Below, piece after piece: positions 30,760 through 64,000 of a stretch of DNA of 64,000 bases (its first letter is position 1; the number at the start of each line of letters is the position of its first letter). The position numbers and the translations under genes are program-made. Below the pieces are notes generated by a model. It was not told the origin of the DNA. It ran no database searches and saw nothing but the letters and a program-made list of their open reading frames with translations. Source of the DNA: Chrysophaeum taylorii (lineage: Eukaryota > Sar > Pelagophyceae > Pelagomonadales > Pelagomonadaceae); assembly GCA_029834535.1 (NCBI GenBank), contig JAQMWT010000466.1, positions 124,001 to 188,000 of the forward strand, written 5' to 3'.

Positions 30760-30764
30760 GGCAA

Positions 30765-32040: not shown

Positions 32041-32059
32041 TTATAGTTTAGCGACATTG

Positions 32060-34200: not shown

Positions 34201-34229
34201 AGATATATAGTTTAACGACATTTCGGTCA

Positions 34230-36750
34230 AGCAGTTGCTGGAAATAGACATCATAAAAGCTTGTGCCAAAGACAAGGTATCTGTGCTGCACGTGGTGGAA
34301 GCTTGATCAACGGTCATGAAATTGGATACATAGGATTTCTTCGTCACGGCAGCAGTATGTTGGAAGGTAGGGTCCAACATAAGGGATTTAATATCGGCAA
34401 CGAGGAGCGAAAGGTGCTTGTACAGAGTGCTGTACGTACCGGCAGGCAGAGCATTGCTGAGCATGTCACAGCAAAGGTCGTGGCGAAGAGACAAGAGGAA
34501 AGATTCCTGTTGTTTGGTGTGGTTGTTAGCACGAATCAACTCCGGTCGAGTGGGGTAGCGTAATTTCCCGTTGCGAGGGTCGAGTAAAATAATATTGGCA
34601 TACCCTCGGACGGTGGGCAATGGAGCAAGCATGGAGTGGATTTTAGAGCCGAGTTTGCGGTCACTTCCACGAAGGTACCCTATATAGCGACTATGAGATA
34701 AGTGGTGATCTTCCAGAGCAAAATGAGAATCCTTGTAGTCGAAAGAGTTGTCGGTGGCCTTGTAGGTAAGGCAGCCAGGCATCACAAGAGAGCATCTGGA
34801 CAAGAGCTTTTGCATGGCGGTGCCATAGGTGGCAGCGGAGCCAACTTGAGGAAAGGCTTGGACTATCCACAAGTAACCCCTAAACGGCTCCAAATATATG
34901 GACCTGTCCCGGTCGCGGGGGATGTCGGAAGCAGTGAACGTATACGTGCTTCCAAACGCGTCAATGGAAGCATGATATTGGGTGGCGGCGTTCTCTATGG
35001 TGAGGTCGCCGTCAGAATGGTGGCCACCAGTTAGGAAGTAGGTATTGTGTGATGTTGATGAGGTTGTAAGTAGTAACCTGTGTGACGGTTGGTTAGTTTC
35101 GAAAACGGTTATGTAATAGGACACAGGAGTGGGTGAGTTAGTGTGTAAGCTGGCAAACAAGTTATAGAGGATTGTAAAACCTTGACGTGTATAGGGTAGG
35201 TTGCATTGGGTAGCGGCTCCATAGAGGAGCGTTTAAAGCACAACTGATGATAAGTACACTCGGATTGAACAGAGTGAGTACGTTGCTCGTGAGCCTGTTG
35301 TGAGTGAAGGCGAAGCAGTAACATATTGAGGGATTCAAGGTCAGCCATAGTAAGCTGAACAGAACCTGTGCGAGTAAGGTGCAAACGTTTTAGGAACGGG
35401 GATATATGGAGGATCGGGGAACACCCGGATCCAGTCTTTGGATACGTGTTTAGGTAGCCAAAGGCGCTTGGGAATAGCTTGTAGATCATCCACGATCTTT
35501 AGGAAGGGGCGTGGATGGAGGATAGGCCACGACAATAGTTTAATTGGTCCAGTAGAATACCTGCGTGCGATGCATATCCATCTTTCTCTAGATTGGTAGT
35601 CGCCACAGAGGTAGGTCGGGAACCTATCAACAACATCGACACAGTAATCAAGTGTAGTATGGATAAGATTGGCCACTGTGATGTGGTCTTGATGACAGTA
35701 CTTATGTGGAGGCGTCATCTCAGCCAGTAGTACCAAGGGCTGGAGTAGCTTGATGACAGACAACATGCTGTCGAAAAGAGAATCGTCCAGCAGGCTGTGT
35801 AAGTCTTCTGTCTTATGCTGTTTTAGTAAATTCCTGTTTGTGCAGGGAGGAGTGATCTCAATTATATCACAATAGAATGTGCGCCTTTCCTCTGGTGAGA
35901 TTAGGTGAAGATGGTTAATAAAGGCGGGGAGAGATTCAAATAATAATACAGTAGGAAACGGTGGCGTAACATACGAACAAGCGTATCATCAGACTCAACA
36001 ACAACTTTTACATTGATATTTAAGCCTAAGTCATTAGTGGCTTGAGACAGGAACGCCGGAGTTGACAAACCAGAACAAAGTAACATGACAGAGGGTTTGC
36101 GGAGATTGGACTCTTGTGAGAGAAACACTGGGCGTGAAAGTAGTCAAGTTAATGGCTGCGTATTTTGCTGAACAAACTTGTTCTGTTTCCGAAGATTGAG
36201 AACCAAAGGGCGAATCCACGGGCGATCTGGTAAAACTCTTTGGAGTAGGTAGTTGTAGTATGCCAGTAGATCCCTGTTTTCATGGTATCGCTTGAGGGGA
36301 AATGCGAGGGAACGAAGTTCGAGTTGCTTGTCGCGAGCGATGTTGTAAGTGAGACAAGGGAGAGCAGGTAAATTAGCTGCTATGTAGTGTATGGGAATAC
36401 GTACATCTTTGTCTATGCGGCTCGTGACAGCGCTGAGCTTTGGCTCAGCTCGATCATTGAACACAGTGGTCAGGTTCGTCTGGTTCCACTCGAGCATGCT
36501 CAGGATAGCGAGATGTCGGTCATGCACTGGCTGAAGACATAAACTGAATAACAATCGGCGCGTATTTGGAGTCCAGTGGAATTATATGATTGGGTATTGC
36601 AAAATCATAAGTGGACATCAATGAGATGGTAGCACAAGAGTCAAAATATAGAAAAGAGCAATGTGGAGGGACACTGTTTACCTTCATATAGTTGGTGAGG
36701 AAGGCGTTTTCCGAATGTGGGCAAGTAGTGGAGAGGCTGGCTGTGAAGAA
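34230..36750 (-). mobile_element. Copia element: protease and protease-integrase connecting region
   Basis: Fossil part. An aspartic protease-like active site FDSCATISLM is visible near 36600-36650 (D-S-C-A in place of the usual D-S/T-G-A). Between it and the integrase are about 2 kb of AT-richer protein-like sequence without recognised domains, unusual for Copia, where protease and integrase are adjacent. Confidence 0.6.
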
Positions 36751-36759
36751 GTTCTCCAG

Positions 36760-38760
36760 CAATAACAGATTCGTTGGAATAATAATCGGTTGAACAGGTG
36801 GTGATGGTTCGTCAGCCTCATCAGCCATGCCGTGCTTTTCATCAAATGACGATAGCGAAGTATGATCGGCATCCCTTTTGGTTTCGGCTTGTGATGGTAG
36901 GTTGAGGGCAGATTGGACCTGTGAAGATAGCGAGGACAATAACGCTGGTGGTAAAGCCGAGATGGCGGAAGCGGTAAAGAGGTTAGGCACGGTATTGGAA
37001 GGATTACCCTGTGTGTTTGTAGTAGGAGGAGTTGCCTTTGGGGTGGGAGCAGTAACAACAGTATGGTGTTGTGGCTCCACGTAGTTTAACGACTTTTCGG
37101 TCGAGGATAGATGAACGTCTACATCATAAATGATGTCTTCTGCAAACATGAGCTGTTCGTTTAGACGAAGTAAACTACTGTTGTCCTCAGTAGATGTCGT
37201 TGACAGAATGTCAGCTGATTGTAATAGAGTCTCAAATAACTTGTTGATATTCTGTTGTAGCTGAGCCGTGGTATCATTATCTGTCACATGCTTCGTAAGT
37301 TCACTACACTGTTCTCGCAGGGTGTTTAAGGTGTGGTTTGTTCGATCTAATAATTTCATGTTAGACCGAGAGGACCTGTCAAAAGTGCGGGGGTAAATTG
37401 GACGGTCATGGGACTGTCCAGCAGTTTTCTTGGTGACGTAAGAATCACCAGAACGATAATACGATAAATCGCTGCGAGAGAAAGGCTGGCGAGCATCATT
37501 AGAGTTACGCAAGCGTCTAGCATTAAACGTGGAAGATGTACCAGGTTGGGACGAAGTGATGAAGGCGAGTGTGTTAGCAGTTTGAGTCAGACTTTTGTCT
37601 GCTGAATCCAGAGTGTTTGTAAGTAGTAACTTTGGCTTTGGTTGAGATGATAAACCTTCGACATAGGGTTGCCAAGAAACAGGGCGTTCTAAGCGTCTTT
37701 TGTTCGACCCATTTGATACTACATTGTATAAGTCTAATGCGTATTCTAAAATGTAGCTAGGGTTGGTAGGGTGACACAATCGTTCAGCTTCTGGCACAGG
37801 CCGAGATGAAGATCGGGTTTCATACATATAACACCAATCTACCCAACCACGATCGTAACGATTGTTGCTGGTATTATCGGCATAATGCCGATGTATCTCT
37901 TCATAGATTTTTCTACAAAGAGTGCCAAAGTCGAATTGAAGGTCAGTCTCTTCCTGGTTAAGTTGGTAAGAGATTTGCCTAAATGCTAGGACAGCTTCGA
38001 TAAATACATGGACATACCAGTTAGGATTATAAACAACAGAGTTAAATTGCTGTTTCAAATAGGACACATCAGTAGTCGTAACAGACTCGTAGTGACTAAA
38101 GGCGATGAGCATAATGGCTCGAGCCTTGTTGGGTAAATAACTTTTGTTATATACCTCATTGATGGCGGGCCAGGCCGCAAGTGCTGGTTTTCCAACACTT
38201 TCAAGATTGAAGTAAGTATGCAAGAATGTAGCATACGTGTTCTGATAAGCGTGCCAGTCAGCAGCAGTTAACGAAAACATGGTAACAGGGGCACGAACAC
38301 GGGTGTCGAAAGCTAATGCCTTCGGGTGCGCGCGATTTAAGATTCGTTCCTCTTCTAAGAAACGGGCATTGATTTCAGGACGTAATGCCTTGACTTCATA
38401 GTCGTAACAGACAGTAGCTAGCTGAGCTACTTCTGCATCAGGTAAGTGGGGGAAAGCTTCGTTGGTGAAATGCCATTCCTGATACTCAGGGGGCAATTCA
38501 TCAACAGCTAAACGGAGATCAACAGCCCTATCGGTCTTCCATTCCAGAAAAACGCGATCGAGAATTTGATTCCGGAGGATCTCATAGTCCTTGCATGACC
38601 GAGTATATGCTTCGTACGAGTCGTACTCGAGGAAGGCATCGGCATGACTGGACCGTAACAATTGCTTAATGTGCTTGATTTGCAAGGATACCTTGCGAGT
38701 CTGAAGCTGAAATCGATTTCCATCGTTAAGAAACTCAACTACAGGAGCTTCGAGCTTCAA
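36760..38760 (-). mobile_element. Copia element: Gag-like region
   Basis: Fossil part. A helical Gag-like protein (RNQILDRVFLEWKTDRAVDL, WHFTNEAFPHLPDAEVAQL, WVDWCYMYETRSSSRPVP) followed by basic and Ser-rich linkers. No CCHC knuckle was found. It resembles the gag-like fragment at 27270-27602. Confidence 0.7.
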
Positions 38761-39325
38761 TATATATCCGCACCCGTGATCGCCTTGGGTGCGGCTCGTG
38801 CTGCGTGTTCTGCCATAGCAGTTGACGGGGAACCTGTGGGTTCAGTCACGCAGTTGACACTGTCTAGACATTCTAAGGGGGGTCTGTCTATCGGTGTCTA
38901 TGTACACTCATCGTTTTCGATGAAAAAAAATGTCTATTTGACGACTGTGCAAGCTGTGAGTCCAGAGTAGTGTCGCTAAGCGTAGTCACTCAGGCAGCTG
39001 GTTAGTTTTGGTGCTCTCAAGGAGCTTGTTAAGTGCATTGCCATGGAATGTACGAGTGGACGTACCCAAATATTCCATAACGCGTGTGCAAGAGTACAGG
39101 GTAGCCAATTACACACACATCAACATTGACATGACAATACGATACTATGACCAGGTGCACACAAGGTTGCACGATCACGTGTGCAAAAAAGTATTATATA
39201 CAGCCCAATAGCAATGGCGTTGTATTTACAAGTGTGTTTACGTATCGAGGTTGAGCCGGCGCGGTAACGGCCCAATACCCATAGGTTACGTGCGCGTTTT
39301 AACACATGGTTTCTCAGGGACCCGC

Positions 39326-39339
39326 CTGGGCCCATAACC
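39326..39339 (-). other. primer binding site matching an internal part of initiator-Met tRNA
   Basis: Directly next to the 5' LTR. On the plus strand it reads CTGGGCCCATAACC, the anticodon-arm sequence of eukaryotic initiator tRNA-Met (anticodon CAT), so the element's strand is complementary to it. Priming from an internal tRNA fragment is known for Drosophila copia. Confidence 0.75.
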
Positions 39340-39667
39340 TGCTGAGCATTTAGCAAGCAGTGGTAAGTCGCCTGGGAAACCTTCCCGTCTCATCATGAAC
39401 GTCTGGAAGTATTTAATTCGGGGAATGAAAGGGTATGTTCCCTATATCATCAGAAGACGACAGGCGGCATCTAGAACTACACGAGAAAAGGCAAAGTGTA
39501 TAGTGCTACATACCTCGGGACGCGCTAGACCATGATGATGATCGTAGGCACAAATCAGAGGACTATTTCAAGTAGTATTTGATTGTGTAGAAAGGAAGAA
39601 GAAGGGTAAGGAAGAGATCACATTCTCAACGGACGGATAAGGGTAAGAGGCAGCAGATTTCTCTGCA
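39340..39667 (-). repeat. 5' LTR of the Copia element
   Basis: Starts TGCTGAG and ends CTCTGCA on the plus strand; 12 bp longer than the other LTR because of one short insertion or duplication in an ACTATTT context. Confidence 0.9.
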
Positions 39668-39672
39668 GGATT
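39668..39672. repeat. target-site duplication GGATT, right copy
   Basis: Exact repeat of 27603-27607. Confidence 0.9.
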
Positions 39673-40602
39673 GATAGACAGGATGACACATAAGAATGAA
39701 GGGTTTCTTGAGTGCGGGTCATACGTACAGTACGCTATTTTAAGCGTGGGCTTTTTTATTTACAAGACCAAACAATTCAACATGCTATTGACACATGATG
39801 ACTTGAGACTGAAGAATGGATTAATTCTCGAGCAGTCAGTCTTTTGTTGGGGAATGGAAGGGAAAACCCACGCACGTTTCCGCGGCTTGTGTAGGAAAAT
39901 TTTAATTTTATTCGTTATGCGAGTGCACATGACCAGTGACTGGCCCAACTCGGTCACAAACCAACTTCTTAACTCGTGGGCATGCACCGTCACAAAACAT
40001 ATATATACAGTAGACCACCGCCAAACACATTGTCGCACTTTCACTCCAATCTCTTCGCAGCTTGGCGCGGCGCGGGCCTTGTTGCTCTCAACAATCCATT
40101 TCACAGGCGCCTGCTCCTCCTTCGGCGTGAGCGACATCCGGTCCGAGCTAGCGTGCTTCGCGGCTGTTTCATCAAACAAAACACGCTCCTTCAGTCCTTA
40201 TCGTCGAGCTGTCTCCAGGTGATGAGCTCAATCCACTCTGGGTGGTCAGTCATGCACTTCTCGGCCCCTAGTCCTTCCTTCTCGCAATACGCTAAGGCCT
40301 CCGCGAAGGCTTTCTGCTGCTGGCGTTTCGTTTCTTTTCCGCGTCCAAAATAGCCGTTATCTTGTTGAAAACTCGCTTCAGAGCCGTTTTTTCTCGATGC
40401 CGCTTCTCCCGGGCTGTCTCATAGGGGCTCGCCCAGGCTCCTTCCGTGCCTTGGGGCGCTTCGCCACCTTCGGCTTGGCACTAGTGGGCTTCCTAAGTGC
40501 GGAAGCTGAGTTTTTTTCGAAAGAGCGGGTAATTTTTAGTGTCGGGTGATTTTTTAGTGTCGACCCACCCTTATTATTATTTCTGCGGCGGGTTTTAGGA
40601 TT
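39673..40602 (-). pseudogene. protein-like scraps of a host gene beside the retroelement
   Basis: Minus-strand segments read as protein but in different frames: SPYETAREKRHREKTALKRV with NKITAILDAEKK (about 40330-40440); KAFAEALAYCEKEGLGAEKC continuing to EWIELITWRQLDDKD and a stop near 40196; and MFDETAAKHASSDRMSLTPK followed by EEQAPVKWIVESN (about 40030-40179). The first two overlap at a KK/RQQQ point with a one-base frame change and no clear intron, so this is either a frameshifted host gene or a gene with a missed small intron. The remainder of the stretch, toward the retroelement, is AT-rich without a supported gene. No family recognised. Confidence 0.3.
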
Positions 40603-43873: not shown

Positions 43874-46800
43874 TCATTTCCAGGTGGTGCACCGTTCGCC
43901 GCAGTATATACAGTGCGTGGCGCTTTGCGGGACCTCGTGGGAGCACTTGGTGCAGACGATGGGTTTTCCGCGCGACGGCCGCGCGGCTAGGTTGGCGATG
44001 AGATCACGCTTGTGCTGTTGGTCGGCGTCGGCCTGGAGCTGGGCTTTGGCGAGGAGGTCGAGGACGCGGTGGAGAAGGGCGCTCGCCTGGACGAGCTCCG
44101 GGGTGTCCTCGAAGGCACCCTTCGTCCAGAGCTCCCTGGCCCTCGAGACGGCCGCGCTCGTGTCGCGAACGGTCCGCTCGGCCGCCGCGACGCGCTTCAG
44201 GAGGGCGCGGCGCTTCGGGCTGACCTCGACCCGCACGACCTTTTTTTTGCCGCTCTCGTCGTCGTCGTCGTCGTCGAGCAGGGAATCCCACTCGAAAAGG
44301 AGCGCCGCAGCGAGGTAGGCGCCGTACCTGATTTGGTCGAGACACGCCGCCTTGGCGGCTTTTTGCTCTGGGGAGTCGTCGTCCGCGCGGAAGCGCGGGT
44401 CCTCGTAGACGCGCTCGCCCGTCTCGCCGTGCTCGAAGCAAAAGTTGCCGCGTTCGTCGCGAGACTCCATCCAAAACGGTGCCGCGTCCTCGTCGACGAC
44501 CTTGACGAGGCCGGTAAGCGAGTTGAACCACCGAGTCTCGTCGACCTTCTCCCAGCGTTTGGACTCGTCCTCGAGCTCCTTGGCTCTGCGCGCGAGGTTC
44601 TTGAGGTCGGCACGTCGGGCGCGGCGGAGTTCGAGCTGCGGGCGGTACGCCTGGTCGAGCATCGCCCACTCTCCGCGCGCGTCGTACAGTTGCACGCGGT
44701 CGGCGTTGGCCTCGAGATCGAGCCACTCGTAGTCTCCCGAGCCGTCGTGGTACTCGACGCGATACCTCTTCCGGCGACGGTGGAACTTGGCGAGCGTCCC
44801 TTCGTACCACTGGTCCATCGACGGCCAGTAGACGCGAACGCTGCAGCCGACGAGCTCCGCGTCGACGGGATCAACCAACGGATTCTCCGAGACCTCTTCG
44901 CCCGTACGCGCGTTGAGCCACGTCGTCGCGCGCGACGCGGGGTCGATTCGCTCGACCCACGCGCTGTCGGGGCTGGCGTCGTCCTCGTCGTCCCCGCTGC
45001 TGCTGCTGCACGAGTCGCGGTCGAGCGCGGCGACGAAATCCTGGTAACGCCGGGTCGCGCTTTCGGCGCTCCGAAGGACTTCGAATCGCTGTCGGTTCAA
45101 GACGCACGCGGCCGTCTCGTTGAGGCGAACGTGCCGCCACGCGAGGATGCGGCTCCCGCGGAACGCGCGCTGGATGTCGACGGCGGCGCGCACGCGGCGG
45201 GCACCCGCGGCGCGACGACGTCGCGCGTCCTGGCGGCCGAACAACCCGCGCGTACAACGTTGAACGACGCGCGCCGCGCCGTCTCGCGCGGCCGCGAGGC
45301 GCTCGGCGGCGCGCCTGAGGCGCGTTGCCTCGTTGCGGCACGCGACGACGCGGAATAATCCGACGATGCGCCGCGCCGCCCACGCCTCGAGCTCGTCGCG
45401 ACGCCGCTTTTCGAGGCGGCGCCTCGTCATTTCGCGGTACGCGAGCCTCTCTCGCACAACGCGCTGCGCGTTGTGCGCGGCGACGTCGGCGTCCTCGAGG
45501 AGCCGCGCCCGGAGCTGCGCGTAGACTTTGGCGTGCCGCCGCGCGAGGACGGCTCGCACGACCGCCGCGAGCCGCGTTGCCGCGGCGATGCTGCGGCGGG
45601 CGCGGCGAACGTCGCGGATCCGTTCGATCGCCGGCGCGGCGACGTCGTCGGCGCGCCGGCACGCGTAGCCGCGAAAAAGCGCCTGGAACAACGCGATCTC
45701 CCGGAGTTTGGAGCTTCGCAGATCGCGCTCGCGCGCGAGGGCGTGCGCGAACCGGCGGCCTTTGACCGCGCGCCAGCTCCGCTGAAGAACCCGGGCGCTC
45801 TCGGCGGCGCGGTCGGCCGCGCGATCGCGATTGGCCCGGGCTCGTCGCGAAAACCTGAGCGCGCACCGCGCGAGCACGAGCGACGCCTTGTCCTGCTTGA
45901 TAAACCACACAATCTCTCGCGCGATGCGGCGCCACCTGTAGAACCGGAAGAGCGTACAGATGAGCCGGGCCGATCGGTGCTCGAGCTCGCGCTGCCGAGC
46001 CTCGAGCGCGCGAGACGCGTGGTCTTCGATTGGCGCGAACCCGAAAAACGTCGTCGCTTCGCGCACGAGCCCGACGCCGGCGATGAGGGAGCGGAGCGAC
46101 CGCACGGTGACTTGTTCGCACCCCGTCACGTTGAGCGTGCGCAACGCGCGGCACCGCGTTGCGAGGGTGCCGAGGGCCCCCTCCGAGACGAGCTCGGCGC
46201 CGGCGATATCGAGCGTCGCGAGCCGCGGGCACCCGGCCGCGAGCGCGGCGAGGCCCGAGTTCCTGATGGGTCCGGCGCGCGGCGCGAGAAGCGCGCGGAG
46301 CTCGCCGCACCATCGCCCGACAGCGCGGACCGACCGGTCCCCAATCCCTCGGCATTCCCCGACGGCGAGGACCTCGAGGCGCCGACAACTCCTCGCGACG
46401 GCGACGACGCCCGCGTCCGAGAGACGCGCGTTTCCGGTGACCGCCAAGAATCGCAGCCGTCGGCACCCTGCCGCGACGGCCCTCAACGCGTCGTCGGTCA
46501 TCTTGGAGCACCGCGAGATGTCGAGGGACTCGAGCCCTCGACACCCGAGCCGCGCGCACCCGAGCGAGCCGGCGACCCAGCCGCACGCCTCGGCCGTTAG
46601 GCGCTCGCACCGAGCCAGGTCCAGCCTCGTCAGGGTGCGGTGACAGCAGGAGACCACGGCCTTAATCCCGAGGTTCGAGATGTTCTCGCACCCGGCGAGC
46701 CGCAGCACCCTGAGCTCGAACGTCCGCGCCGCGAACGCCTCGACGTCCTCGTCGGACGTCGCCGTCTGCGACAGGTCGACCGCCGTCAGCGACTCGCCGA

Positions 46801-47272
46801 GCGCGAGCGACAGCGAGCGCATTTTCTTGAGGAGAGGGCCCACCGTCCACGCCGAGGAGGACGACAGGTTCAACGTCTTGCCGCGCGCGACGGGGAACGA
46901 GGCGTCGTCGTCGTCGTCGCCGCCCGCGAGGAGTCGTTCGCACCACTCGACGACCGTGGTGGTGGTGGTGGTGGTGGTGGTCTTGGTGGCGGTGTGTCGT
47001 CGCTTTTCGTCGTCGTCGGCAAGAGCGCAGGCCCCCTCCCACAGTTGGGCATCGGTCAGCGCGACGCCTCGGAGGTCGAGGTTGCGCACCGAGGGAGGAA
47101 ACTGCGCCAAGAGCTGTCGCGTCGAGACATGCGGAAACGACGCCGCCGCCGCCTTGTTCTGCTGCTGCTTCTTCCCCCTCGCCTCGTCGATCGCCATGCG
47201 TATTCCAATGTTTTTGCCGTGCCAATAGAGCGGCCCCCGACGAAGGTCGAGGTCCGCCCGGGCGAGGTCCAT
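43874..47272 (-). CDS. LRR - IQ - WW-like - Tudor-like - zinc-ribbon protein
   Basis: 1132 aa. Residues about 130-400 are Cys-containing leucine-rich repeats of the AMN1/F-box type (LRVLRLAGCENISNLGIKAV, LDISRCSKMTDDALRAVAAGC and others). Residues about 420-740 are Arg-rich with IQ-like helices (ARVLQRSWRAVKGRRFA, ALFQALFRGYACRR, AAVDIQRAFRGSRIL). A degenerate WW (AWVERIDPASRATTWLN) is followed near 805-860 by a Tudor-like barrel (VGCSVRVYWPSMDQWYEGTL...YRVEYHDGSGDYEWLDL), and a second WW-like part (RWEKVDETRWFNSLTG). The C-terminus is a zinc ribbon, CTKCSHEVPQSATHCIYCGERC. Calmodulin binding and methyl-ligand reading are inferences. It is divergent from the next gene with about 120 bp between starts, and only 6 bp separates its end from the stop of the fusion gene. 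Confidence 0.75.
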   Translation of the reverse strand: MDLARADLDLRRGPLYWHGKNIGIRMAIDEARGKKQQQNKAAAASFPHVSTRQLLAQFPPSVRNLDLRGVALTDAQLWEGACALADDDEKRRHTATKTTTTTTTTTVVEWCERLLAGGDDDDDASFPVARGKTLNLSSSSAWTVGPLLKKMRSLSLALGESLTAVDLSQTATSDEDVEAFAARTFELRVLRLAGCENISNLGIKAVVSCCHRTLTRLDLARCERLTAEACGWVAGSLGCARLGCRGLESLDISRCSKMTDDALRAVAAGCRRLRFLAVTGNARLSDAGVVAVARSCRRLEVLAVGECRGIGDRSVRAVGRWCGELRALLAPRAGPIRNSGLAALAAGCPRLATLDIAGAELVSEGALGTLATRCRALRTLNVTGCEQVTVRSLRSLIAGVGLVREATTFFGFAPIEDHASRALEARQRELEHRSARLICTLFRFYRWRRIAREIVWFIKQDKASLVLARCALRFSRRARANRDRAADRAAESARVLQRSWRAVKGRRFAHALARERDLRSSKLREIALFQALFRGYACRRADDVAAPAIERIRDVRRARRSIAAATRLAAVVRAVLARRHAKVYAQLRARLLEDADVAAHNAQRVVRERLAYREMTRRRLEKRRRDELEAWAARRIVGLFRVVACRNEATRLRRAAERLAAARDGAARVVQRCTRGLFGRQDARRRRAAGARRVRAAVDIQRAFRGSRILAWRHVRLNETAACVLNRQRFEVLRSAESATRRYQDFVAALDRDSCSSSSGDDEDDASPDSAWVERIDPASRATTWLNARTGEEVSENPLVDPVDAELVGCSVRVYWPSMDQWYEGTLAKFHRRRKRYRVEYHDGSGDYEWLDLEANADRVQLYDARGEWAMLDQAYRPQLELRRARRADLKNLARRAKELEDESKRWEKVDETRWFNSLTGLVKVVDEDAAPFWMESRDERGNFCFEHGETGERVYEDPRFRADDDSPEQKAAKAACLDQIRYGAYLAAALLFEWDSLLDDDDDDESGKKKVVRVEVSPKRRALLKRVAAAERTVRDTSAAVSRARELWTKGAFEDTPELVQASALLHRVLDLLAKAQLQADADQQHKRDLIANLAARPSRGKPIVCTKCSHEVPQSATHCIYCGERCTTWK

Positions 47273-53631: not shown

Positions 53632-55026
53632 ATGGCAATACTTTCGCGCGAAGAGGTGGCTCGGAGCTCTGCCGAAAGGCAGCAGGTCCAGCACCATCAA
53701 CAGAATCAGGAATACGCTGCTGGAAAACCGTGCGACGAAGACGACGAAGTAACCGTGGTCGACGAGCACCGCGAAGCTTCGACGTCGTGGTCGCGGCTGT
53801 GCCATGGCGTCCTCAACAACGACTTCGTGATCGCCCACGTCCTCACGCACCTGCGGCTCGCGGAGATGCTGAGGGCGGCGTCGATTCGCAGATGCTTTCT
53901 CGAGGCTTTGTGCCGGGTCGAAGAGGTCAAGATGACGTGCCGGTGCCTCTGCATGCCGTCGCTCATGTCGCGGTTCCGCGGGGCGCGGTGTCTGACGTTG
54001 GAGGGCGGGATCGACCTCTTTAACGCGATGGGTCTCCTCGCGTGGCCCCTCCAGACGTCGCTCGGGCAGGTGTGCCAACTGAATTTCGAGATTTCGGGTG
54101 ACGAGATCGGCGACGACGCGCGAGGCTTCCACGCTTGGGAGCGCGGGCTCACGACCCTAGCGCGCTCGGGCGCGCTCCGGGACATGAGTTACCTCACCTT
54201 TTCGTTTCGCGGGCGTCTCAAGGGCGTCGCGCACTACTTGACTCACGCCGCGTTCGAGGCAGTTTTTCTCGTCGAGAGACCTCGGCGCCTCCTGTCGCTC
54301 GAGTGCGCCTTGCTCGTCGCCGCGGGACACCCCGAGATCGACGCGACGATCGCGGTCGAACTCTTGCGACGACACGCCGACCCGAACGCACTCACGCCGC
54401 GCGGCACGCCCGCGCTCCTGCTCGCCGCCGAGTCCAACAATCGCGACGTCGTTCGCGCGCTCCTCGGCGCCGGCGCCGACGCGACCTCGCGATCCGCCGT
54501 CCTCGGCAACAAGTCAGCCCTCCACTGCGCCGTCGCCAACACCTATTGGTACTCGTTCCGGGACGACCGAGACGACGCGCGCATCGTCGTTTATTCGACG
54601 CCCCTTCTCGAGAAAAGAAAGCGGCCCGCCGCCGTGCGCTTCGAACGCGCGGCCATCGTCGACCTCCTCGTCGTCGCGGGCGTCGACGTCAACGCGCGAG
54701 ACGAACTCGGCAACACGCCCCTCATCACTGCCGTCGCCAGCTGCGGCGGCGACCTCGACTGGGACGCCAAGTCGGTTATTTGTACCGTCCACGCCCTCCT
54801 CTCTGCCGGCGCCGACGTCACTCTCAAAAACAAGGCCGGCTACACGGCGTTGGACTCGGCGGTCGAGCTCGACAAGCCCATCGAGCTCCTCAGCACCCTC
54901 GCCGAGGCCGAGGTTGCAGCCTGCGCGAGGGGATCCGGCTCCGGAGCCGCCTCGCCGAGCCTGCTGCTGCCGCCAGACCTCAAACGCGCGCGCTTCGCTC
55001 GTGATACTTCTCACTTCTTTTCCTGA
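53632..55026 (+). CDS. ankyrin-repeat protein
   Basis: 464 aa. The N-terminal ~200 residues are helical with an F-box-like patch (NNDFVIAHVLTHLRLAEMLRAASIRRCF). From about residue 225 ankyrin repeats follow: LLVAAGHPEIDATIAVELLRRHADPNALTPRGTPALLLAAESNNRDVVRALLGAGADA, ALHCAVAN, VDLLVVAGVDVNARDELGNTPLITAVA and ALLSAGADVTLKNKAGYTALDSAV. F-box plus ankyrin proteins are usual substrate adaptors, but the F-box match is weak. The C-terminus is low complexity. Confidence 0.8.
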   Translation: MAILSREEVARSSAERQQVQHHQQNQEYAAGKPCDEDDEVTVVDEHREASTSWSRLCHGVLNNDFVIAHVLTHLRLAEMLRAASIRRCFLEALCRVEEVKMTCRCLCMPSLMSRFRGARCLTLEGGIDLFNAMGLLAWPLQTSLGQVCQLNFEISGDEIGDDARGFHAWERGLTTLARSGALRDMSYLTFSFRGRLKGVAHYLTHAAFEAVFLVERPRRLLSLECALLVAAGHPEIDATIAVELLRRHADPNALTPRGTPALLLAAESNNRDVVRALLGAGADATSRSAVLGNKSALHCAVANTYWYSFRDDRDDARIVVYSTPLLEKRKRPAAVRFERAAIVDLLVVAGVDVNARDELGNTPLITAVASCGGDLDWDAKSVICTVHALLSAGADVTLKNKAGYTALDSAVELDKPIELLSTLAEAEVAACARGSGSGAASPSLLLPPDLKRARFARDTSHFFS

Positions 55027-55978: not shown

Positions 55979-56815
55979 ATGGAGAACCACTCGATGATCG
56001 TTGAGCAGCTTGCCGTCCGAGCGAAGAAGATCGCGGGCAAGCGGCCGGTCACGCTCGACGACGCTGCTCGCGTCGTGTCTTGCCCACGGTTGGCGTTCTG
56101 TCCCGCGACTGTTCTGAGCAGGCTGTCGATCCCAGAGAAACTCCGCGACGCGGTCGCAGCGGAGGCACGCATGCCCCGGCAGCCTGGCGGCGGCTGCAAG
56201 GCGCCGACGCCCGAGGTCGTCGAAAAAGTTCGCGCCTGGCTCGAGAGGTACGACGAGCTTCGGAAAGCGACGACGGCACGGGCGGCTTTGGCCGTGGTCG
56301 AACACGTGTGCTGGCTGCCGACTCGCACGACAGCGACGCCGGCAGAGGTTTTTGCGGCCGCGGACCACGTGGCGATCCCGTACCGCCGACCGCCGGTCGC
56401 CCGCGCGACGCTGCCGCGCGGCTTGGCCGGCCGACTCATCGGTATCGGCGGCCGTCGTATCCGACTCCTCGTGCCCAAAGGCCACCGCGTCGTGGTCGGC
56501 CCCGCCCTTGTCACGGCGACCGGGCCCCGCGCCGGGGACGTCGTCGCGGCATTCGCGCGACGCGCCAACGTCATCGAACAAAAGAGGATCGCGCGCGACC
56601 GGCGTCTCCTCGCGGACCGAAAACGTCGTCCCCTCGCGGCACCACTACTCGAACCCCACGAACTCCTTCGACTCGCGCGTGCCAGGAAGCGCGACCGGGA
56701 CCGCCGCTTTGGTACTTCCTCGTCCAAAAAGTGCCGCGCGAAGCGTGCTCGCCGCTCCGACCGCAAACTCGCCGCCAACCGACGCGCTCTCCCGGACTGG
56801 GCCTTGTGTTGAGTC
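55979..56815 (+). CDS. KH-like small basic protein (tentative)
   Basis: 277 aa. Near residues 140-195, LPRGLAGRLIGIGGRRIRLL...VVVGPALVTATGPRAGDVVAAF resembles a KH fold (I-G-x-G-G-x-x-I core), which would bind single-stranded RNA or DNA. Flanks are helical, and the C-terminal 80 residues are strongly basic (ARKRDRDRRF, KKCRAKRARR). The antisense strand is also open, as often at this GC content, but the KH-like core supports this strand. Confidence 0.5.
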
Positions 56816-57652
56816 GTAGTCTGCGTTGCACAACGAAAGCTCTGGCCGTTTATTCTTTCCTGCTTGGTGGACGACGGGTGCTTTGCGCCGCGGAGGGAGC
56901 TCGGCCTGCCTTGTGTATATGGCCTCTGGGTTCCAGCACCCCCTCCTACCCCCCTCATCTTTCGTTGCGCCCGTCGCTTGCAGGCACGTCCTTCAACGGG
57001 GTTCTCCTCCTCCTCCACCATTGTCCAGCGCGCGTAGAACCTCTTCTCCCGCTTCTGCGCGCCCGCGCGCCGAAGGAGACGAGGGCAGCAGCTCCAGTGC
57101 ATTGGTAGGTAGGTAGGTAGGTGCGTGGGGACCACCCACCGCACTAAGACGTATTACCCTCTTACCCTCTTACCACTAAGACGTATTATTACCCTTAGCC
57201 TGATGGCCGACCGCATGGTTGCGATGGATGACGGTGCCTCATGAATCCTGAGCCTTGCGAGGGCATCCGCCCTCCCGGCGTAGGTTGGCACCTATTCGCC
57301 TCCCGGGCGGGCCGGTTGGCAGCCGGAACGTTCGCAGTGGGACGGGGTATGGCCGGGGGGCGCAGACGGAAGGTTATCGACTAGTTGGTTGTCAGTCAAA
57401 TCGCCGTCTCCTCGTCGCATGGCGACGAGCTTGATGATCACTCTCCGCCGACCCACCTTTCGGCGCCCCTCGTCTACAGGCCCGTGATTCCGGACTGGCT
57501 CCTGTCGGTCTGGCCTGGCTCCCATGCTCGGGAGAGGTCTGAAGTTAGTTAGTTAGTTAGTTAGTTAGTTAGGCAGTCAGTCAGTCATTCAGACGAGGCG
57601 GGCGCGGGACCCCCTTCATCTAATAGGGCGGTGGCCGCGTGACTCCCCCCCT
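56816..57652. other. intergenic region with an anonymous ~350-bp island and TTAG/GTAG repeats
   Basis: GTAG repeat at 57104-57121, a duplicated ACTAAGACGTATTA motif at 57143-57190, a non-repetitive island at about 57195-57540 unlike either flank, and TTAG units at 57543-57570. No gene supported. Confidence 0.45.
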
Positions 57653-60600
57653 CTACTTGCCGCGAGAGAGAGGCGTGACTAGGGCCACGGGCTCTCGCAT
57701 GAGCGAGGCGATGCGGTCGGGCGAGAGCGGGCCGCAGACCGCAAAGGAGAAAGAGGAGTCGGTGAGCTCGGGAGGCGCGGGGTAGAGCGCGATTTCGTCG
57801 GCGTGGAAGAGGCGGGCGCACGCGGACGACAAGCGCGCCTTGAGTTCGCGGGTCTCGACACCCTGCCCCGATGATGATCGCACTAGCGCGACCGCGGCCT
57901 CCGGTGGGAACGGCGCCGCGCGCGAGAGGATGTCCAGGATGCGCGCGTCTCGTGGCCAACTCGGCGTCATCAAGTCGGCGATCTCGCGGAAGGCCGCCCT
58001 CACGCGCCAAGCGCGGGCGGCGACGCGGCCAATCTTGCCGGGCGGAGGGACCGAACCGTCGGCGACGGCGCTGGAGAACGCCGCCGCGAGGGCCCCGGGC
58101 GTGGCGCGCTCTCCGAATGAATCGAGCGCGCTCGAGAGCTCGTGCGTGCGCATCGCGTGCAGCCACGGTGCGCCGCCGATGCCGCGCGCGCGCAGAGCTA
58201 TGTCCAGAGCGTCCAAAGCGCACACCGAGTCGACGTCCTCGGCGACAGGGCGCGCGCTTTCTTCGCCGACGAGCGCGACGCTCACGTCGACCTCGACGCC
58301 CGCGCGTGTTGTCAAAGAGAGCACGGGGCGGCGCGGGGAGCGGCCGAGGTACGCGCTGCCCTCGTCTCGGAGAAGCGTCGCGAGACGTTCGAGAAGCGCG
58401 AGGGCATCGCGACTCGACGCGCACGACGAGCCAACGCAGACGAGGTCTACGTCGGAGCGCCGCCCTCGCGGCCACGACCCCACAGCCTCGCATCGCCCTG
58501 TCGCCACGATTTGCTTGTAGCGCGCGTCGACGAGCGCGATCGCGTCGCGGCCAGCGGCAGTCTCGCTCTCGGGTCGACGGCCACGCCCGAAGCACGCGAG
58601 CCACTGCTGGAGAGGGGGGGCATCCGAGTGGAGGGTCCGCGGGTCCACGGATCTGAACGCGACGTCCTCGCACACAATCGCGACCGTCGCGGCGACGGCC
58701 TCGCGCGAGGCGGCGTCGTCGTCGTAGTGGCAGAGATCGGCGAGTCGAGGGAGCGTTGCCACGATCTTCTCGACCGTGCGCGCCTTAAAGTCGGCCGTGC
58801 TGCCAGCGTCAGGCTTGAAACAGAAAGCGTCGAAGAGCGCGTCGGCGCGATAACGCCGCAGCAACCGTCGAACCGCCGACGCGCACGCCGCTACGCGGCC
58901 GGTCAAGAGCACGTGAACAGCGCTCGAGTCTCGCCGGGCGAGATCGTGGAGACGCGCGAGGGCCAGCAGCGGCGCGCACGGCCGGTCGGGGGCGAGGGAT
59001 GTGGGGTCGTCGGGGCTCGGGAGCGACGCCCCGCCGCAAGGTGCCGTCTCGAGCAGCGTGCCGTCAAAGTCCCACACGTACGCGTTTGTCGCCGACTTCC
59101 ACTCGCGAGACCGCGGCGCCGCGAAGTCGACGACGACCCGAGCGGGCGTCGTCTTCTTGTTCGGCTTGCTGCTGCTCAGCAGAGCGTATTCGATGAGAGC
59201 GGTGGAGGTCGTGATGACTTCGCCCGACACGAGTTGGACGCCGAGACGGCCTCGGACTGTTGTCGTTACTCCTTTCTCGCGCGGTGCCGTCTCGAACGAC
59301 GAAAAGTCGAGCGCGCGCGAGTCCGCCGGGCGAAAGTTCGTCGCGTGCGCGATCGTGATGTGCCCGCGCCACCCGTCGTGCGGAAACGACGACTCGGACG
59401 CGAGCGCGACGCACGACACGGCGTGTGCGTTCGCGTCGGCGCTCGCGGGCCCGACGGCGAGCGAGACGCCTCGCCCCAGATTTTGTGCCGTCGCGCGCGC
59501 CTGCGCCGACCCCGCTGCTGGCCGGAACGCTACTGTCGCGTGGTGCGCTCGCACAACGGCTGACCGCGGAGGGTAGGCGCGCACGAGCTGCTGGCGCGAT
59601 GCCTCGGACAGCACGACGCCAGCATATGCGATTTGGCGCCGCGACGCGAGGGCGTCTAGCGCCGCTGCCGCTTGATCTCGCGCCCCATCGACGACGACGA
59701 CGACGACGCGCGTGGCGTCGGTCGTTGTTGCCGGAAGCGCCTCCCAGCGGCACCAAGCCGAGTCGGCGTTGACGCCGTGCTCGCCGCGACTCGCGAGTCT
59801 CCGAGCGTCTTCGAGCGACGCGCACGCGAACTCGACGACGCCCAACGACGCCCCGTGCTTCGCGGCGAGATCAACGTACGGCGCCATCTCCCGCAGACCG
59901 CAATTGGTGTTGTCGATGACGACAATCCCGACACGCGCCTGTATCGCTTTGGCAGCCGCGCCCCGGCACGCGCCGTGGGCTGTGTCGAGTTTTGCCGCCG
60001 AGAAGCCGCCGTTCTTGGCGCCGAAATAGGCGTCGGCCGAGCACGCCTCGCACGAGACGCTCGCCTCGGCGGCCAACGCGCCCAACTTTCTGGCCATCGT
60101 CGTCTTGCCGGAGCCCGGCACGCCGCGTAGGATAACAACAAAGCTCGTACTCTTCGCGTCGTCGAGGGCGCCCGTGCTCACCACGTCGTCGATGAGCGCC
60201 CGCGCAGCGTCGTCGATCGCGTCGAACGTCGCGACTTGGTTTTTCAACGTCGTCGTCATCTCCGCCAACGCGGGGTAATACGTCGCCAAAGTTCTGTAAA
60301 AGCCGCTCGGCGCGGCGCCACCGTTGAGGCCGGCGACGCAGAGGTGCACGCCGTCGACTTCCTGGACGCCGAAGATCGTATCCGGGCCGAAGCCGCTGCG
60401 TCGCCACGCCGTCTCGTCAAAGTACCCCAGCGAGCGCGCGAGCTGTCTCGGAAGTTTTGCGACGGTCACGTGCGCGCGCGTGGTGGCGCGACGACCGGCC
60501 GTGTTGAAGCCCGCCTGCTCGAGCGAGTCGTAGAGGTCGTTCGAGAGCGCGTTCAGTCGACCTCGCTCTTTCGGCGCAACGTACACGACTTGTCCGCGCA

Positions 60601-62740
60601 CGCTGAACGAGTGAACGCCCTCGAGCGACAAGACGACCGGTCGGTTCCCCGCGAACATGTGGCGACCGAGCAACGCGGGGACCTCGTCGCGCAGGACTTG
60701 ATCAAGGCGACGACGTTCGAGTTCGCCGTCGACGCGCGCCGTCGCGAGCGTGACGTGCAGCGAGGACGTCGGTTGGAGCGCCGAGTCGAGCCTCGGCTCG
60801 AAGTGAACGAGCGCATCCTGCAGCGCGCGGACCCGCGACACGATCGCCGGAGCGTCGACCTTGATGGCGAGGAACAAGTTGGGTCTTCGTGGGTCTTTGA
60901 TGTCTTTCTTGTAGACGACGGTTTTGTTCCGAGATGATGAGTCAGATTCTCCACGGGGGGCGACAACAACAGTGGGTTCTCTCCCCTCTTGGTGCGACGA
61001 CGGCGACGATGATGCCAGGTCCCGCGCGACAGGGTTCTCGAGGTGGTCGAGCCGCGTTTGCGAGTCAACGTCGCATACCTCGTCGACGCGGGTATCCTCC
61101 GCGGATGCCAGGTACCGCGCGACGAGGTTCTCGAGGTCGAGCCGCGTTTGCGAGTCAACGTCGCAGACTTCGTCGCGGATATCCTCCGTGGACATTCCGT
61201 TTTCGTGCGCGAGCGTAGCCAGCGCCTTGGGCAAGAAGGCCTCGACGCGAGCGGCGTCGCGCGAGACGAGCAGCGGGGGAAAGGCTTGGTCGTAGTCGTC
61301 GTCGTCGGTCTCCAGCAGGCTCGATAGTTCGAAGAAGCCGCGGTTGACTGTTCGGTCGCGGGCGCCGTGCGCTGCAAGGTAGGCACGACTCTTGATCTTG
61401 ATCCTTCGTCCTCGCGCGTCGCGCGCGACAAAACCTTCGCGGTACGCTGGCAATCGTCGCGTGAACTGGAGCAGCCGCGCCAGGCGCGTGGTTCCCGGCA
61501 TCACGGCGTAGGCGTTCGGCGACAGGACGCGTGCCCGGGCGACGACGTCGCCGTCGAGGTCCTCCTCGACCTCCTCGCCGCCAGGGAGAGCGCGCGTGAG
61601 GAGGTGGACGAGGCGCGGCGCGACGTGGGGCGCGATGACACGCGCACGAGGGTGGAGGAGCTCGAACGCGTAGCACCGGTCCTGCCTCAGCGCCTCGCAC
61701 AGCTTGTCGAAGCCGCCGCTCGTTGCGTTGGCCGCCTCGACGAAGAGGCTCCCGACCGAGACGCAATCGGCGTCGTCGTCGTCGATCTCGTCGCCCCACC
61801 GAAACCGTGCGTCGAAAGCGTCGATGCAGCCGTTCGAGGCGACGCGCCAGCGGCCGTCCACAAAGTAGACCTTGGTCAGCAGCCCGTCGCACTTCTCGGT
61901 GACTACGGCGTCGTCGTCGACGGCGACGTCGGCCGCGCGATGATCTTCAACTTCCCAAAATTTGTCAAAGGCCGCGCACAGGAGCCGGTTCGTGTCCTGC
62001 TCGTACACGCAGCCGCGACAATGGTCGAGCGCGAGGTGAGCGAGGTCTGCCGTCGTCGTCGTCGTCTGCGGGGCGAACTGCGTAGCGTCCGCGTACATCG
62101 CCGAGTAGGCCTTAACTTTGCCGAGCGTCTTCGTAGCGACCTTGCACCGCAAGCCCAGGAGCACCGGGCGCACGTCGGAGAAGGCCTCGACGCCGCGCTC
62201 GCGAAGGTAGCGCTGCAACGGCGTCCCGACCTCTCCGAGGGTCGTCGGCCTGCCGATTGTGTTCCCGCAGCCCGAGAGATCGCATCGCTCGAAGGGCGGC
62301 GTAGACCCGAAGACGCGATCGAGCCTCGTCCGCTTGTCCCAGACCACCGCGTCGTCGAATTTGAAGTAGACGATGCGGTGCTGCGGCACCGCGAGCGCGT
62401 CCATCGCCGCCTGCTCGATGCGGCCCCAGCTCGAGAAAGCCGACAACGGCTTCTCCACGATGGTGTTGAGAATGCGGTCGCGGTACCCCACGACGCACCG
62501 GCCCGCCTCGACCTCTGGGTCCCACAGAAACCGATTTATCACGTCGAGCGCCACCCGCATGATGCTTCCGCCCCAACCGCCGTTTGGTCGCCGACACAAT
62601 TCTTTCGGATGATCGCTCGGGAGTGTTCTCCGAGCGTTTCTGCGAGCCGTTGCCACCTCACTCCAGAGCATTCGGCGTAGACTGGAAACTGGACTAAACT
62701 TCTGGGAGGAAGAAAAAAAAAACGACCACCGTGTTTTCAC
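57653..62740 (-). CDS. multidomain RNA-repair protein: MJ1316, RNA ligase, 2H, polynucleotide kinase, 2H-like, HAD phosphatase, nucleotidyltransferase
   Basis: 1695 aa in one open frame; later Mets at residues 24 and 61 are possible starts. About 65-150: MJ1316 (former DUF504) end-recognition domain, VINRFLWDPE...VVGYRDRI...HRIVYFKFDDAVVWD. About 180-450: RNA ligase with nucleotidyl-Lys283 in EKCDGLLTKVYF and motif IV E435-GFVARD, then RIKIKSR. About 520-580: two copies of a ~30-residue repeat. About 630-850: 2H phosphoesterase, HVTLA (H662) and HVTVAK (H757). About 870-1000: kinase P-loop GVPGSGKTT (K879), DNTNCG. About 1040-1140: second 2H-like, H1067ATVAF and H1127-containing HITIAH. About 1220-1390: HAD phosphatase, DFDGTL (D1224) and LLTGR. 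About 1420-1500: nucleotidyltransferase GSWPRGRRSDVDL (D1430, D1432). Together these steps could heal and seal cleaved RNA; target unknown. Confidence 0.85.
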   Translation of the reverse strand: MKTRWSFFFSSSQKFSPVSSLRRMLWSEVATARRNARRTLPSDHPKELCRRPNGGWGGSIMRVALDVINRFLWDPEVEAGRCVVGYRDRILNTIVEKPLSAFSSWGRIEQAAMDALAVPQHRIVYFKFDDAVVWDKRTRLDRVFGSTPPFERCDLSGCGNTIGRPTTLGEVGTPLQRYLRERGVEAFSDVRPVLLGLRCKVATKTLGKVKAYSAMYADATQFAPQTTTTTADLAHLALDHCRGCVYEQDTNRLLCAAFDKFWEVEDHRAADVAVDDDAVVTEKCDGLLTKVYFVDGRWRVASNGCIDAFDARFRWGDEIDDDDADCVSVGSLFVEAANATSGGFDKLCEALRQDRCYAFELLHPRARVIAPHVAPRLVHLLTRALPGGEEVEEDLDGDVVARARVLSPNAYAVMPGTTRLARLLQFTRRLPAYREGFVARDARGRRIKIKSRAYLAAHGARDRTVNRGFFELSSLLETDDDDYDQAFPPLLVSRDAARVEAFLPKALATLAHENGMSTEDIRDEVCDVDSQTRLDLENLVARYLASAEDTRVDEVCDVDSQTRLDHLENPVARDLASSSPSSHQEGREPTVVVAPRGESDSSSRNKTVVYKKDIKDPRRPNLFLAIKVDAPAIVSRVRALQDALVHFEPRLDSALQPTSSLHVTLATARVDGELERRRLDQVLRDEVPALLGRHMFAGNRPVVLSLEGVHSFSVRGQVVYVAPKERGRLNALSNDLYDSLEQAGFNTAGRRATTRAHVTVAKLPRQLARSLGYFDETAWRRSGFGPDTIFGVQEVDGVHLCVAGLNGGAAPSGFYRTLATYYPALAEMTTTLKNQVATFDAIDDAARALIDDVVSTGALDDAKSTSFVVILRGVPGSGKTTMARKLGALAAEASVSCEACSADAYFGAKNGGFSAAKLDTAHGACRGAAAKAIQARVGIVVIDNTNCGLREMAPYVDLAAKHGASLGVVEFACASLEDARRLASRGEHGVNADSAWCRWEALPATTTDATRVVVVVVDGARDQAAAALDALASRRQIAYAGVVLSEASRQQLVRAYPPRSAVVRAHHATVAFRPAAGSAQARATAQNLGRGVSLAVGPASADANAHAVSCVALASESSFPHDGWRGHITIAHATNFRPADSRALDFSSFETAPREKGVTTTVRGRLGVQLVSGEVITTSTALIEYALLSSSKPNKKTTPARVVVDFAAPRSREWKSATNAYVWDFDGTLLETAPCGGASLPSPDDPTSLAPDRPCAPLLALARLHDLARRDSSAVHVLLTGRVAACASAVRRLLRRYRADALFDAFCFKPDAGSTADFKARTVEKIVATLPRLADLCHYDDDAASREAVAATVAIVCEDVAFRSVDPRTLHSDAPPLQQWLACFGRGRRPESETAAGRDAIALVDARYKQIVATGRCEAVGSWPRGRRSDVDLVCVGSSCASSRDALALLERLATLLRDEGSAYLGRSPRRPVLSLTTRAGVEVDVSVALVGEESARPVAEDVDSVCALDALDIALRARGIGGAPWLHAMRTHELSSALDSFGERATPGALAAAFSSAVADGSVPPPGKIGRVAARAWRVRAAFREIADLMTPSWPRDARILDILSRAAPFPPEAAVALVRSSSGQGVETRELKARLSSACARLFHADEIALYPAPPELTDSSFSFAVCGPLSPDRIASLMREPVALVTPLSRGK
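61010..61180 (-). repeat. tandem ~81-bp duplication inside the RNA-repair gene
   Basis: Two adjacent copies encode DEVCDVDSQTRLD...LENLVARYLAS-type units between the ligase and the first 2H domain, nearly identical at DNA level, so probably recent. Confidence 0.8.
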
Positions 62741-63737
62741 AGAGGAGCGCCGTAGCTGCGCGGACGCGCGAAAAGTCGAAAGGGCAACCGAGCTCGAGCT
62801 GCTGGGGAAAAGAGAAAGTAGCCTCTCTCCTTCGTTGGTCGTCCTTGATTGTTTGGTGTCACCACCGTCGGGGTCGTCGTCGCCTCAATGGCTGGCTGGC
62901 TGCTTGCCGCCTCCCTCGAGCCGCCTCGGCCTCCCGATGGTTTTTGCTCGGGTCCAGTCTGCGCGGTTCCTAACATCACGGCCAAGCATTGGCATGGAAT
63001 GTACTTGTCGCTCACTACCCAGAGCATGCCGCATTCTTTACTCAGATTTCTCTCAATATGACTGTGGCATCTCGTAATTGCGCACGCCTCGGCGCACAAA
63101 TGCCATTCTCGACGCGGTTTTTTATGGTGGTCGGGGAGCTAATTGTCCCATCTACCGCTTCCTTGCGTGCGCGTCTCCTCCGAGCGCCGTTGTGGTCGGA
63201 GCTCGGTGCTTCTATTCTACCAATGGGTGCACCTTTGCTTCAGCTGCTACCTCTTCTTCATATTAAATGAATAATAACGACCCCGCTTTTGGAGCCATGG
63301 TTTTGTCATCATACATCATAGCCTTTCTCACAGTCACATCTTGATAATACCCCCCACTATCGTACGCCAGTATGCGAAGGGGCCTTTCCAGGCCTGATGC
63401 AGGCCCACCGCACCGCGCTTCTCAACGCCAACGGTTCACTGAATTTACGAGTAGTGGTCACATAATTGTAGGTTATGGCGGAGATCCTCGCAATATCTAT
63501 AGCCCTTTGTTAAAATGTCCATCGCATCATGAATAACTGTGGTTTTTAAGACATCAGAGCGGGACCAAAACAGGGGTGCACCACACCACTGGAGTTTGTG
63601 CACTCCCTCGTCTCACAGAAACTTGCACGGCATTAATAAACTTCTCGAACGACCGTGTTGCTGCTGCCAGTGTGCACGAACACTTCTGCTCGAGACTCGA
63701 ACGATGAGCCTCGACGAGGCGCCGCGCGCGTTCACAG
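62741..63737. other. gene-poor stretch with a possible small secreted protein
   Basis: A plus-strand reading from 62888 (MAGWLLAASLEPPRPPDGFC, then GPVCAVPNITAKHWHG) and another near 63080-63266 (NAILDAVFYGGRGANCPIYR) look protein-like and Cys-containing but do not connect by a clear intron. The rest, especially 63270-63540, is AT-richer and unassigned. Confidence 0.3.
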
Positions 63738-63999
63738 CTACCCCCTGCCAACGCGGAGGTCTCTGTGGAATTGGCGGTGGCTCGCCGTCCAGTGCGTGCG
63801 CTGGCCTGCGGTCGCGACGTGAGTGCGAGCCAACACAACACACTGTCGGGCGGACTCGGCGTATTTGTTACATTCGAGGCTGCAGTAGCGAGCCCGGTCA
63901 TCAAGGGAAACGCGGTGCTCCGAGCACATCGAGCAGAGTGGGAGCCCGGGGTACTCCAGGCCGCACGCGACGCACGTATCGAGTTTAATATCGGTGCGC
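63738..63999 (-). CDS. zinc-finger-like C-terminus, gene continues beyond window
   Basis: The open frame enters from the right edge and ends at 63738. TDIKLDTCVACGLEYPGLPLC, then SMCSEHRVSLDDRARYCSLECNKYAESARQCV has a C-x2-C, C-x2-C, C-x3-C...C pattern like a MYND or treble-clef finger. The remaining ~40 residues have no motif. The opposite strand is also partly open; the Cys spacing is the support. Confidence 0.45.
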   Translation of the reverse strand, partial: RTDIKLDTCVACGLEYPGLPLCSMCSEHRVSLDDRARYCSLECNKYAESARQCVVLARTHVATAGQRTHWTASHRQFHRDLRVGRG

Positions 64000-64000
64000 C

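Follow-up and report, generated by a model that had tools for sequence, protein, structure and literature searches.

A probable self-contained RNA heal-and-seal enzyme on a single chain in the pelagophyte alga Chrysophaeum taylorii

Can one algal gene hold a whole set of RNA repair tools? The question is raised by a stretch of 64,000 nucleotides from Chrysophaeum taylorii (GenBank assembly GCA_029834535.1, contig JAQMWT010000466.1, positions 124,001 to 188,000; hereafter the window), in which a frame of 1,695 codons is present at 57653-62740. A first-pass annotation, made from the letters alone, had read this frame as a one-chain RNA repair enzyme. The current work shows that the frame is real and encodes, from the N- to the C-terminal end, an MJ1316 domain, a T4 Rnl1-type RNA ligase, an AKAP7-type 2H phosphoesterase, a Pnkp-type kinase, a second 2H, a HAD phosphatase and a Cid1/GLD-2-like nucleotidyltransferase. 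These modules, of which two are less well supported, carry their active-site residues and are co-linear across species. The protein is probably a 'Swiss Army Knife' type of RNA repair enzyme that heals and seals broken ends on its own.

One gene and its co-linear homologues

The frame lies on the minus strand, which the first-pass annotation had left unstated; the plus strand of 57653-62740 contains many stops in the same register and is not open, and the plus-strand reading was rejected for this reason. The longest stop-free run in 56001-64000 reaches 1,743 codons, whereas none of 200 single-base shuffles exceeded 454, and thus the length of the frame is not due to chance. The guanine plus cytosine (GC) content of the frame region is 0.69, 0.52 and 0.82 at the first, second and third codon positions. 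In a search of the organism's own genome (70.8 Mb, 697 contigs; 4 candidates scored), a single match covered residues 1-1635 without internal stops, which indicates one exon. The gene is therefore found once in the genome, as an uninterrupted frame.

Translation most likely starts at residue 61 of the 1,695-codon frame, because the MJ1316 domain begins at the ATG located there. The protein database entry of the window's own product (P0002, 1,635 aa) also begins at this residue, and homologues carry 0 to 73 residues ahead of the corresponding Met position. Upstream of the MJ1316 domain the open frame runs through an Arg-rich stretch that has its own ATG, at residue 24, as might be expected if the protein were not cytosolic and repaired fragmented rRNA or tRNA in the plastid or mitochondrion. 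The N-terminal ends of the homologues, however, vary in length and sequence, and P0007 and P0008 start exactly at MJ1316; an organelle enzyme is thus a quite improbable reading.

The first-pass annotation had proposed looking for the same domain order in other algae, and six homologues that align to the window protein in this order were found. They comprise P0003 (source label lgn; 49% identity over 99% of the 1,641-residue query), a protein of Aureoumbra lagunensis (42% over 91%), the Triparma laevis protein P0005 (E 5e-123; best local stretch 39% over 24%), an MMETSP transcript (P0006), a JGI protein and a Tetraparma gracilis protein (P0008). Aureoumbra belongs to the Pelagophyceae, and Triparma and Tetraparma to the Bolidophyceae. 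The first two homologue searches scored about 8,000 candidates sharing most words, and the distribution described is that within the ochrophytes. The search that added the MMETSP, JGI and Tetraparma proteins used only residues 1-420 of the Triparma protein, and the second homologue search, with the alignment as query, yielded no additional homologue. Scans of IMG/VR viral sequences and of prokaryote genomes, in which no relative was confirmed among 49 and 39 pattern stretches, respectively, used two short peptide patterns and therefore reach close relatives only, distant ones being missed.

P0006 is labelled 'complete' and contains six modules in one frame. Four of these were recognized by profile, and alignment and motifs identified the other two, the second 2H and HAD. 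Indirectly, this transcript speaks for a single message. It also bears on the suspicion that the frame is an artefact of read-through across neighbouring genes or of an assembly join, a suspicion that GC-rich, stop-poor DNA with three more frames of over 1,000 aa (two with Pfam matches) would encourage. The near-complete coverage of P0003 and Aureoumbra argues against it, as does this transcript. Co-linear homologues refute the read-through of separate genes, and an artefact of either origin has a negligible probability.

Identity of the seven modules

Five of the seven modules reach a curated Pfam cut-off, the ligase among them only as an isolated domain. Failure of profile searches on most modules, which the first-pass annotation had named as a refuting outcome, was thus not seen. 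Its module list and order and its one-chain repair enzyme are supported by profiles, folds, motifs and homologues, and its landmarks K283-C-D-G (K283 being K223 of P0002), DFDGT and GS...SDVD are all correct. The features are located in Table 1.

Table 1. Coding sequence and modules of the window protein (residues numbered as in P0002)
Feature	Window position	Strand	Basis or remark
Most likely coding sequence	57653..62560	-	ATG = residue 61 of the 1,695-codon frame, to stop; 1,635 aa
MJ1316 domain (1-76)	62333..62560	-	Pfam PF04457, 68 bits vs cut-off 26.3
T4 Rnl1-type RNA ligase (105-420; Pfam stretch 181-392)	61301..62248	-	PF09511
Variable linker/helical region after ligase (421-559)	60884..61300	-	Carries a tandem duplication (61011-61192)
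First 2H, AKAP7/LigT-like (560-760)	60281..60883	-	Motifs HVT 602-604, HVT 697-699
P-loop polynucleotide kinase (Pfam stretch 808-929)	59774..60139	-	AAA_33
Second 2H-like module (975-1125)	59186..59638	-	Motifs HAT 1007-1009, HIT 1067-1069; predicted strands; weak profiles
HAD phosphatase (1160-1310)	58631..59083	-	DFDGT 1164-1168, LLTGR, K1259, D1280-D1281
Polymerase-beta-type nucleotidyltransferase, Cid1/GLD-2-like (fold-matched 1314-1530)	57971..58621	-	GS...SDVD 1361-1372, third Asp 1425

The MJ1316 domain, with a predicted role in the recognition of RNA cyclic ends, is above the PF04457 cut-off in all seven proteins. Elsewhere in the genome lies a second MJ1316 frame, of only 197 aa (L005:1150-1743, minus strand; G000:C390), scoring 24.7 bits as a protein and 26.4 in the genome scan against the same cut-off of 26.3.

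As an isolated domain, the ligase scores 35.7 bits with PF09511 (RNA_lig_T4_1; cut-off 28.3). It is absent from the whole-protein Pfam scan of the window protein (E up to 1), and in that of P0003 the family reaches 28.1 bits, just under the cut-off. When isolated, the ligase domains of all seven proteins match PF09511 with E values no higher than 10, the best being 5e-13. When a seven-sequence ligase profile was compared with PDB, the only ligases to appear at E up to 10 were three T4 RNA ligase 1 sequences (best E 1.3e-10), and the PHROG T4 ligase family phrog_562 also matches (E 1.3e-21). The window protein misses the NCBIfam RNA_lig_T4_1 equivalog cut-off (17.5 vs 242.25 bits); thus, the ligase is a relative and not a phage equivalog. 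K223, D225, G226, F299, E300, E375, G376, K388 and K390, which we take to represent nucleotidyl-transfer motifs I, III, IV and V, are present in all seven proteins. A whole-genome search with PF09511 was uninformative, as it matched no control and missed the 57653-62560 gene too. In the linker that follows the ligase, about 90 bp are tandemly duplicated at 61011-61192 without interrupting the frame; the corresponding stretch occurs once in P0003.

Profile (AKAP7_NLS, 68.5 bits, above the curated cut-off), fold and two HxT motifs identify the first 2H as an AKAP7/LigT phosphoesterase, which is below the NCBIfam 2_5_ligase equivalog cut-off (25.5 vs 65.7). Among its fold neighbours are 2',5'-oligoadenylate phosphodiesterases of viruses and anti-CBASS phosphodiesterases of phages (4z5v, 4rpt, 7t27). 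Such neighbours would suit a protein that controls small-nucleotide signalling along the lines of 2-5A or cyclic-nucleotide immunity: its AKAP7-like 2H would cut 2',5' or cyclic oligonucleotides that the polymerase-beta-type module makes, and RNA repair would follow downstream. No OAS or CD-NTase, however, is among the nucleotidyltransferase matches listed (the best 50 in one listing), and MJ1316 and the ligase are among the most conserved parts of the protein, which points to RNA ends. Signalling control of this kind, with repair downstream of it, is very unlikely. Separate AKAP7-like and PNK3P matches were found elsewhere in the genome, at L008 (G000:C40) and L010 (G000:C544).

The second 2H is the weakest module and is considered, with moderate confidence, a divergent 2H. 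Six proteins 19-45% identical to the window were aligned over this module, the truncated P0008 being left out; four of the 8 invariant columns correspond to the two HxT pairs, and both pairs fall on predicted strands. Both motifs occur in all six full-length domains, and P0008 keeps only the first. LigT_PEase was matched by two of the six pieces (best E 0.0017) and tRNA_lig_CPD also by two (best E 0.067); the piece from the window protein matches neither of these, just DUF6764 (unknown function) at E 0.39. Two unrelated families reach E 0.033 and 0.037, in one member each. PF08302, the Trl1-type cyclic phosphodiesterase family, is absent from whole-protein scans of the seven proteins at E 0.1. 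Sequence searches of PDB with this module returned nothing relevant, and structure matches scarcely cover it.

The kinase and the phosphatase both show the folds of Pnkp. The kinase matches AAA_33 above the curated cut-off (51.4 bits), and its residues are conserved in all seven proteins, position 820 being T or S. The kinase of Triparma P0005 (731-848) also matches the N-terminal end of phrog_8238 (E 9e-10), a phage family of 737 positions labelled RNA ligase and perhaps a phage kinase-ligase fusion. The HAD phosphatase scores above the HAD_SAK_1 cut-off of 25.6 bits in the window (30.7) and Aureoumbra (34.0) proteins and below it in P0003 (18.9) and P0005 (17.0); it was not found in P0006-P0008 by whole-protein scan at E 0.1. 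The top Foldseek match of the C-terminal half is 4xrp_A, a kinase-phosphatase chain of the bacterial Pnkp1/Rnl/Hen1 complex.

The nucleotidyltransferase was identified by its fold and motifs, with a weak profile match in addition. A Cid1/GLD-2/TUT fold and three carboxylates were found, and the structure matches listed are Cid1, GLD-2, TUT, TRAMP and DNA polymerases lambda and mu. Two of four pieces match NTP_transf_2 (best E 0.11) and one matches DNA_pol_B_palm (E 0.092), the window's own piece matching neither. An RlaP identity is not supported by profile, as the RlaP family PF10127 matched neither the whole protein nor the nucleotidyltransferase pieces; a search of the own genome with PF10127 also gave none (controls recovered in 3 of 14).

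Active-site residues are retained in every protein that has the full module. Five of the 7 proteins have the first 2H, each with both of its motifs intact; the second 2H and HAD are each complete in 6 of 7 (Tetraparma keeps the last part of HAD), and the nucleotidyltransferase triad is found in 4 of 7. These counts suggest that MJ1316-ligase-kinase-2H-HAD is the core common to all seven, with 2H and HAD partial in Tetraparma, and that the AKAP7-type 2H and the nucleotidyltransferase represent optional additions. The shorter homologues represent either true losses or incomplete gene models; the Aureoumbra protein ends within the C-terminal region.

Proposed repair pathway

In the first-pass interpretation, the repair reading stands together with the modules and their order; the reaction order, nucleotide addition and toxin- or stress-cleaved tRNA that it also proposed are, like the activities as a whole, matters that we infer. 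The MJ1316 and 2H modules would handle the 2',3'-cyclic phosphate ends produced by metal-independent RNases. A 2H would open the cyclic phosphate, the HAD phosphatase would remove the phosphate to give a free 3' end, and the kinase would phosphorylate the 5'-OH end. The ligase would then self-adenylate on K223 and seal the ends. The enzyme would probably act on tRNAs, or on other structured RNAs, whose loops toxin or stress RNases have cut.

Two 5'-3' repair routes are contrasted in the excerpted text of PMC3400036. In T4, the kinase and DxDxT phosphatase heal the ends and leave a cis-diol without a 2'-phosphate, and Rnl1 seals; tRNA cut by PrrC is mended in this way. In yeast and plants, the 2H phosphodiesterase leaves a 2'-phosphate, for which Tpt1 is needed. 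Both RtcB and Archease were found in the C. taylorii genome, and Tpt1 was not detected there (controls recovered in 3 of 14; an intron-split gene could be missed). This combination favours an additional repair enzyme that gives clean 3' ends over the main splicing ligase, and the absence of detectable Tpt1 suits a phosphatase-based end better than the 2'-phosphate route.

The same genes bear on whether the protein is instead a Trl1 analogue with extra domains, serving as the alga's ligase for tRNA splicing or unconventional mRNA splicing. Its ligase, kinase and 2H follow the Trl1 order, the second 2H has the weak tRNA_lig_CPD likeness described above, and the Triparma homologue bears the incomplete source name '2',3'-cyclic-nucleotide 3...'. 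With RtcB and Archease in the genome, no Tpt1 found to clear a Trl1-type 2'-phosphate, and T4 Rnl1 the only PDB ligase met by the ligase profile, this role is unlikely. Moreover, the HAD phosphatase could strip the 2'-phosphate that Trl1-type sealing needs, as may be deduced from the excerpt of PMC3400036.

By role analogy, the C-terminal terminal-transferase-like module of the proposed repair enzyme may restore nucleotides lost at the break, as has been suggested for ligase-associated nucleotidyltransferases in a jumbo-phage survey (PMC7824862, in excerpt). A more ambitious reading, which we regard as possible but with somewhat less than an even chance, is that of a single-chain heal-restore-seal machine built around a phage-type ligase. 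It would merge both healing chemistries, the phage-type DxDxT phosphatase that gives a cis-diol and the 2H phosphodiesterases known from fungal and plant splicing, and would refill lost nucleotides before sealing by means of its own terminal transferase. If this is true, breaks with base loss would also be mendable.

The remainder of the window contains a copia-like RVT_2 reverse transcriptase frame (30765-33602, minus strand) within a stretch of low GC content (0.45-0.53) and raised GC skew (0.10-0.31) at 26000-40000, probably a retroelement insertion. Ankyrin-repeat, leucine-rich-repeat and C2/DEP frames lie at 53632-55026 (plus strand), 43874-47272 (minus strand) and 21022-25290 (plus strand), respectively.

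Relation to known repair systems

'Swiss Army Knife' RNA-repair proteins were reportedly surveyed by Burroughs and Aravind in 2016. The algal protein shares with them a HAD_SAK_1 domain above the cut-off and several RNA-repair modules on one chain; the first-pass annotation was right that this class had been described, as the Pfam family attests. Eukaryotic fusions of MJ1316 to RNA-repair domains have already been published (PMC6514570, in the text available). Among the literature matches listed (title, abstract start and term counts, a set apart from the 2016 survey's own list), no publication seems to treat this module set.

An Rnl1-type ligase, a T4-like kinase and a DxDxT phosphatase are shared with T4 Pnkp and Rnl1, so that the protein resembles the heal-and-seal set of T4, extended by 2H modules. 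A 2H sits between kinase and phosphatase, unlike in T4, and we know of no MJ1316, 2H or nucleotidyltransferase in the T4 repair pair. T4 has its ligase and its kinase/phosphatase on separate chains (PMC3400036, in excerpt), whereas the alga has one. Phage Rnl1 ligases are distant matches, found in 585 records, with E 2e-9 the best among the 20 of 585 listed. Phage StarPlatinum carries the matched RNA ligase gene about 750 bases ahead of one annotated as polynucleotide kinase, so that two of the functions exist as separate genes.

The ligase-kinase-2H order is that of fungal Trl1, with which the first-pass annotation had compared the protein, and of plant RNL; an AKAP7-type 2H interrupts it in 5 of the 7 proteins. 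The comparison with Trl1 alone is incomplete in that the algal ligase is of T4 Rnl1 type and the kinase/phosphatase Pnkp-like; the HAD phosphatase, the weakly tRNA_lig_CPD-like second 2H and the undetected Tpt1 also differ. The bacterial Pnkp1-Rnl-Hen1 complex contains the methylase Hen1 and is not known to include a 2H. A kinase-phosphatase chain of this complex gives the top Foldseek match noted above. The complex repairs ribotoxin-cut RNA and consists of three proteins (PMC4411300, in excerpt). The kinase-2H tandem recurs in PNK/CPDase (CNPase) of lancelets and vertebrates (PMC5434554, in excerpt). Phage RlaP likewise links a polymerase-beta-type module to a ligase, with a predicted restoration of lost nucleotides (excerpt of PMC7824862); the algal module differs in its lack of PF10127, in its listed Cid1/GLD-2/TUT and DNA polymerase folds and in its fusion to the ligase chain. 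Thus, although the class itself is known, the combination on one chain of a DxDxT phosphatase and 2H with a phage-type ligase and a terminal-transferase-like module is unusual.

Toxin- or virus-driven cleavage of tRNA is best known from bacteria and phages, and the protein offers a possible handle on whether marine algae suffer it too. Which end structures a given enzyme can mend should follow from the modules that come and go from pelagophytes to bolidophytes. One chain with the module sets of both routes and a terminal transferase could also become a single-protein reagent for mending broken RNA. The tools to recognize, clean, patch and re-join broken RNA, which elsewhere usually belong to separate proteins or pathways, would here be held on one chain.
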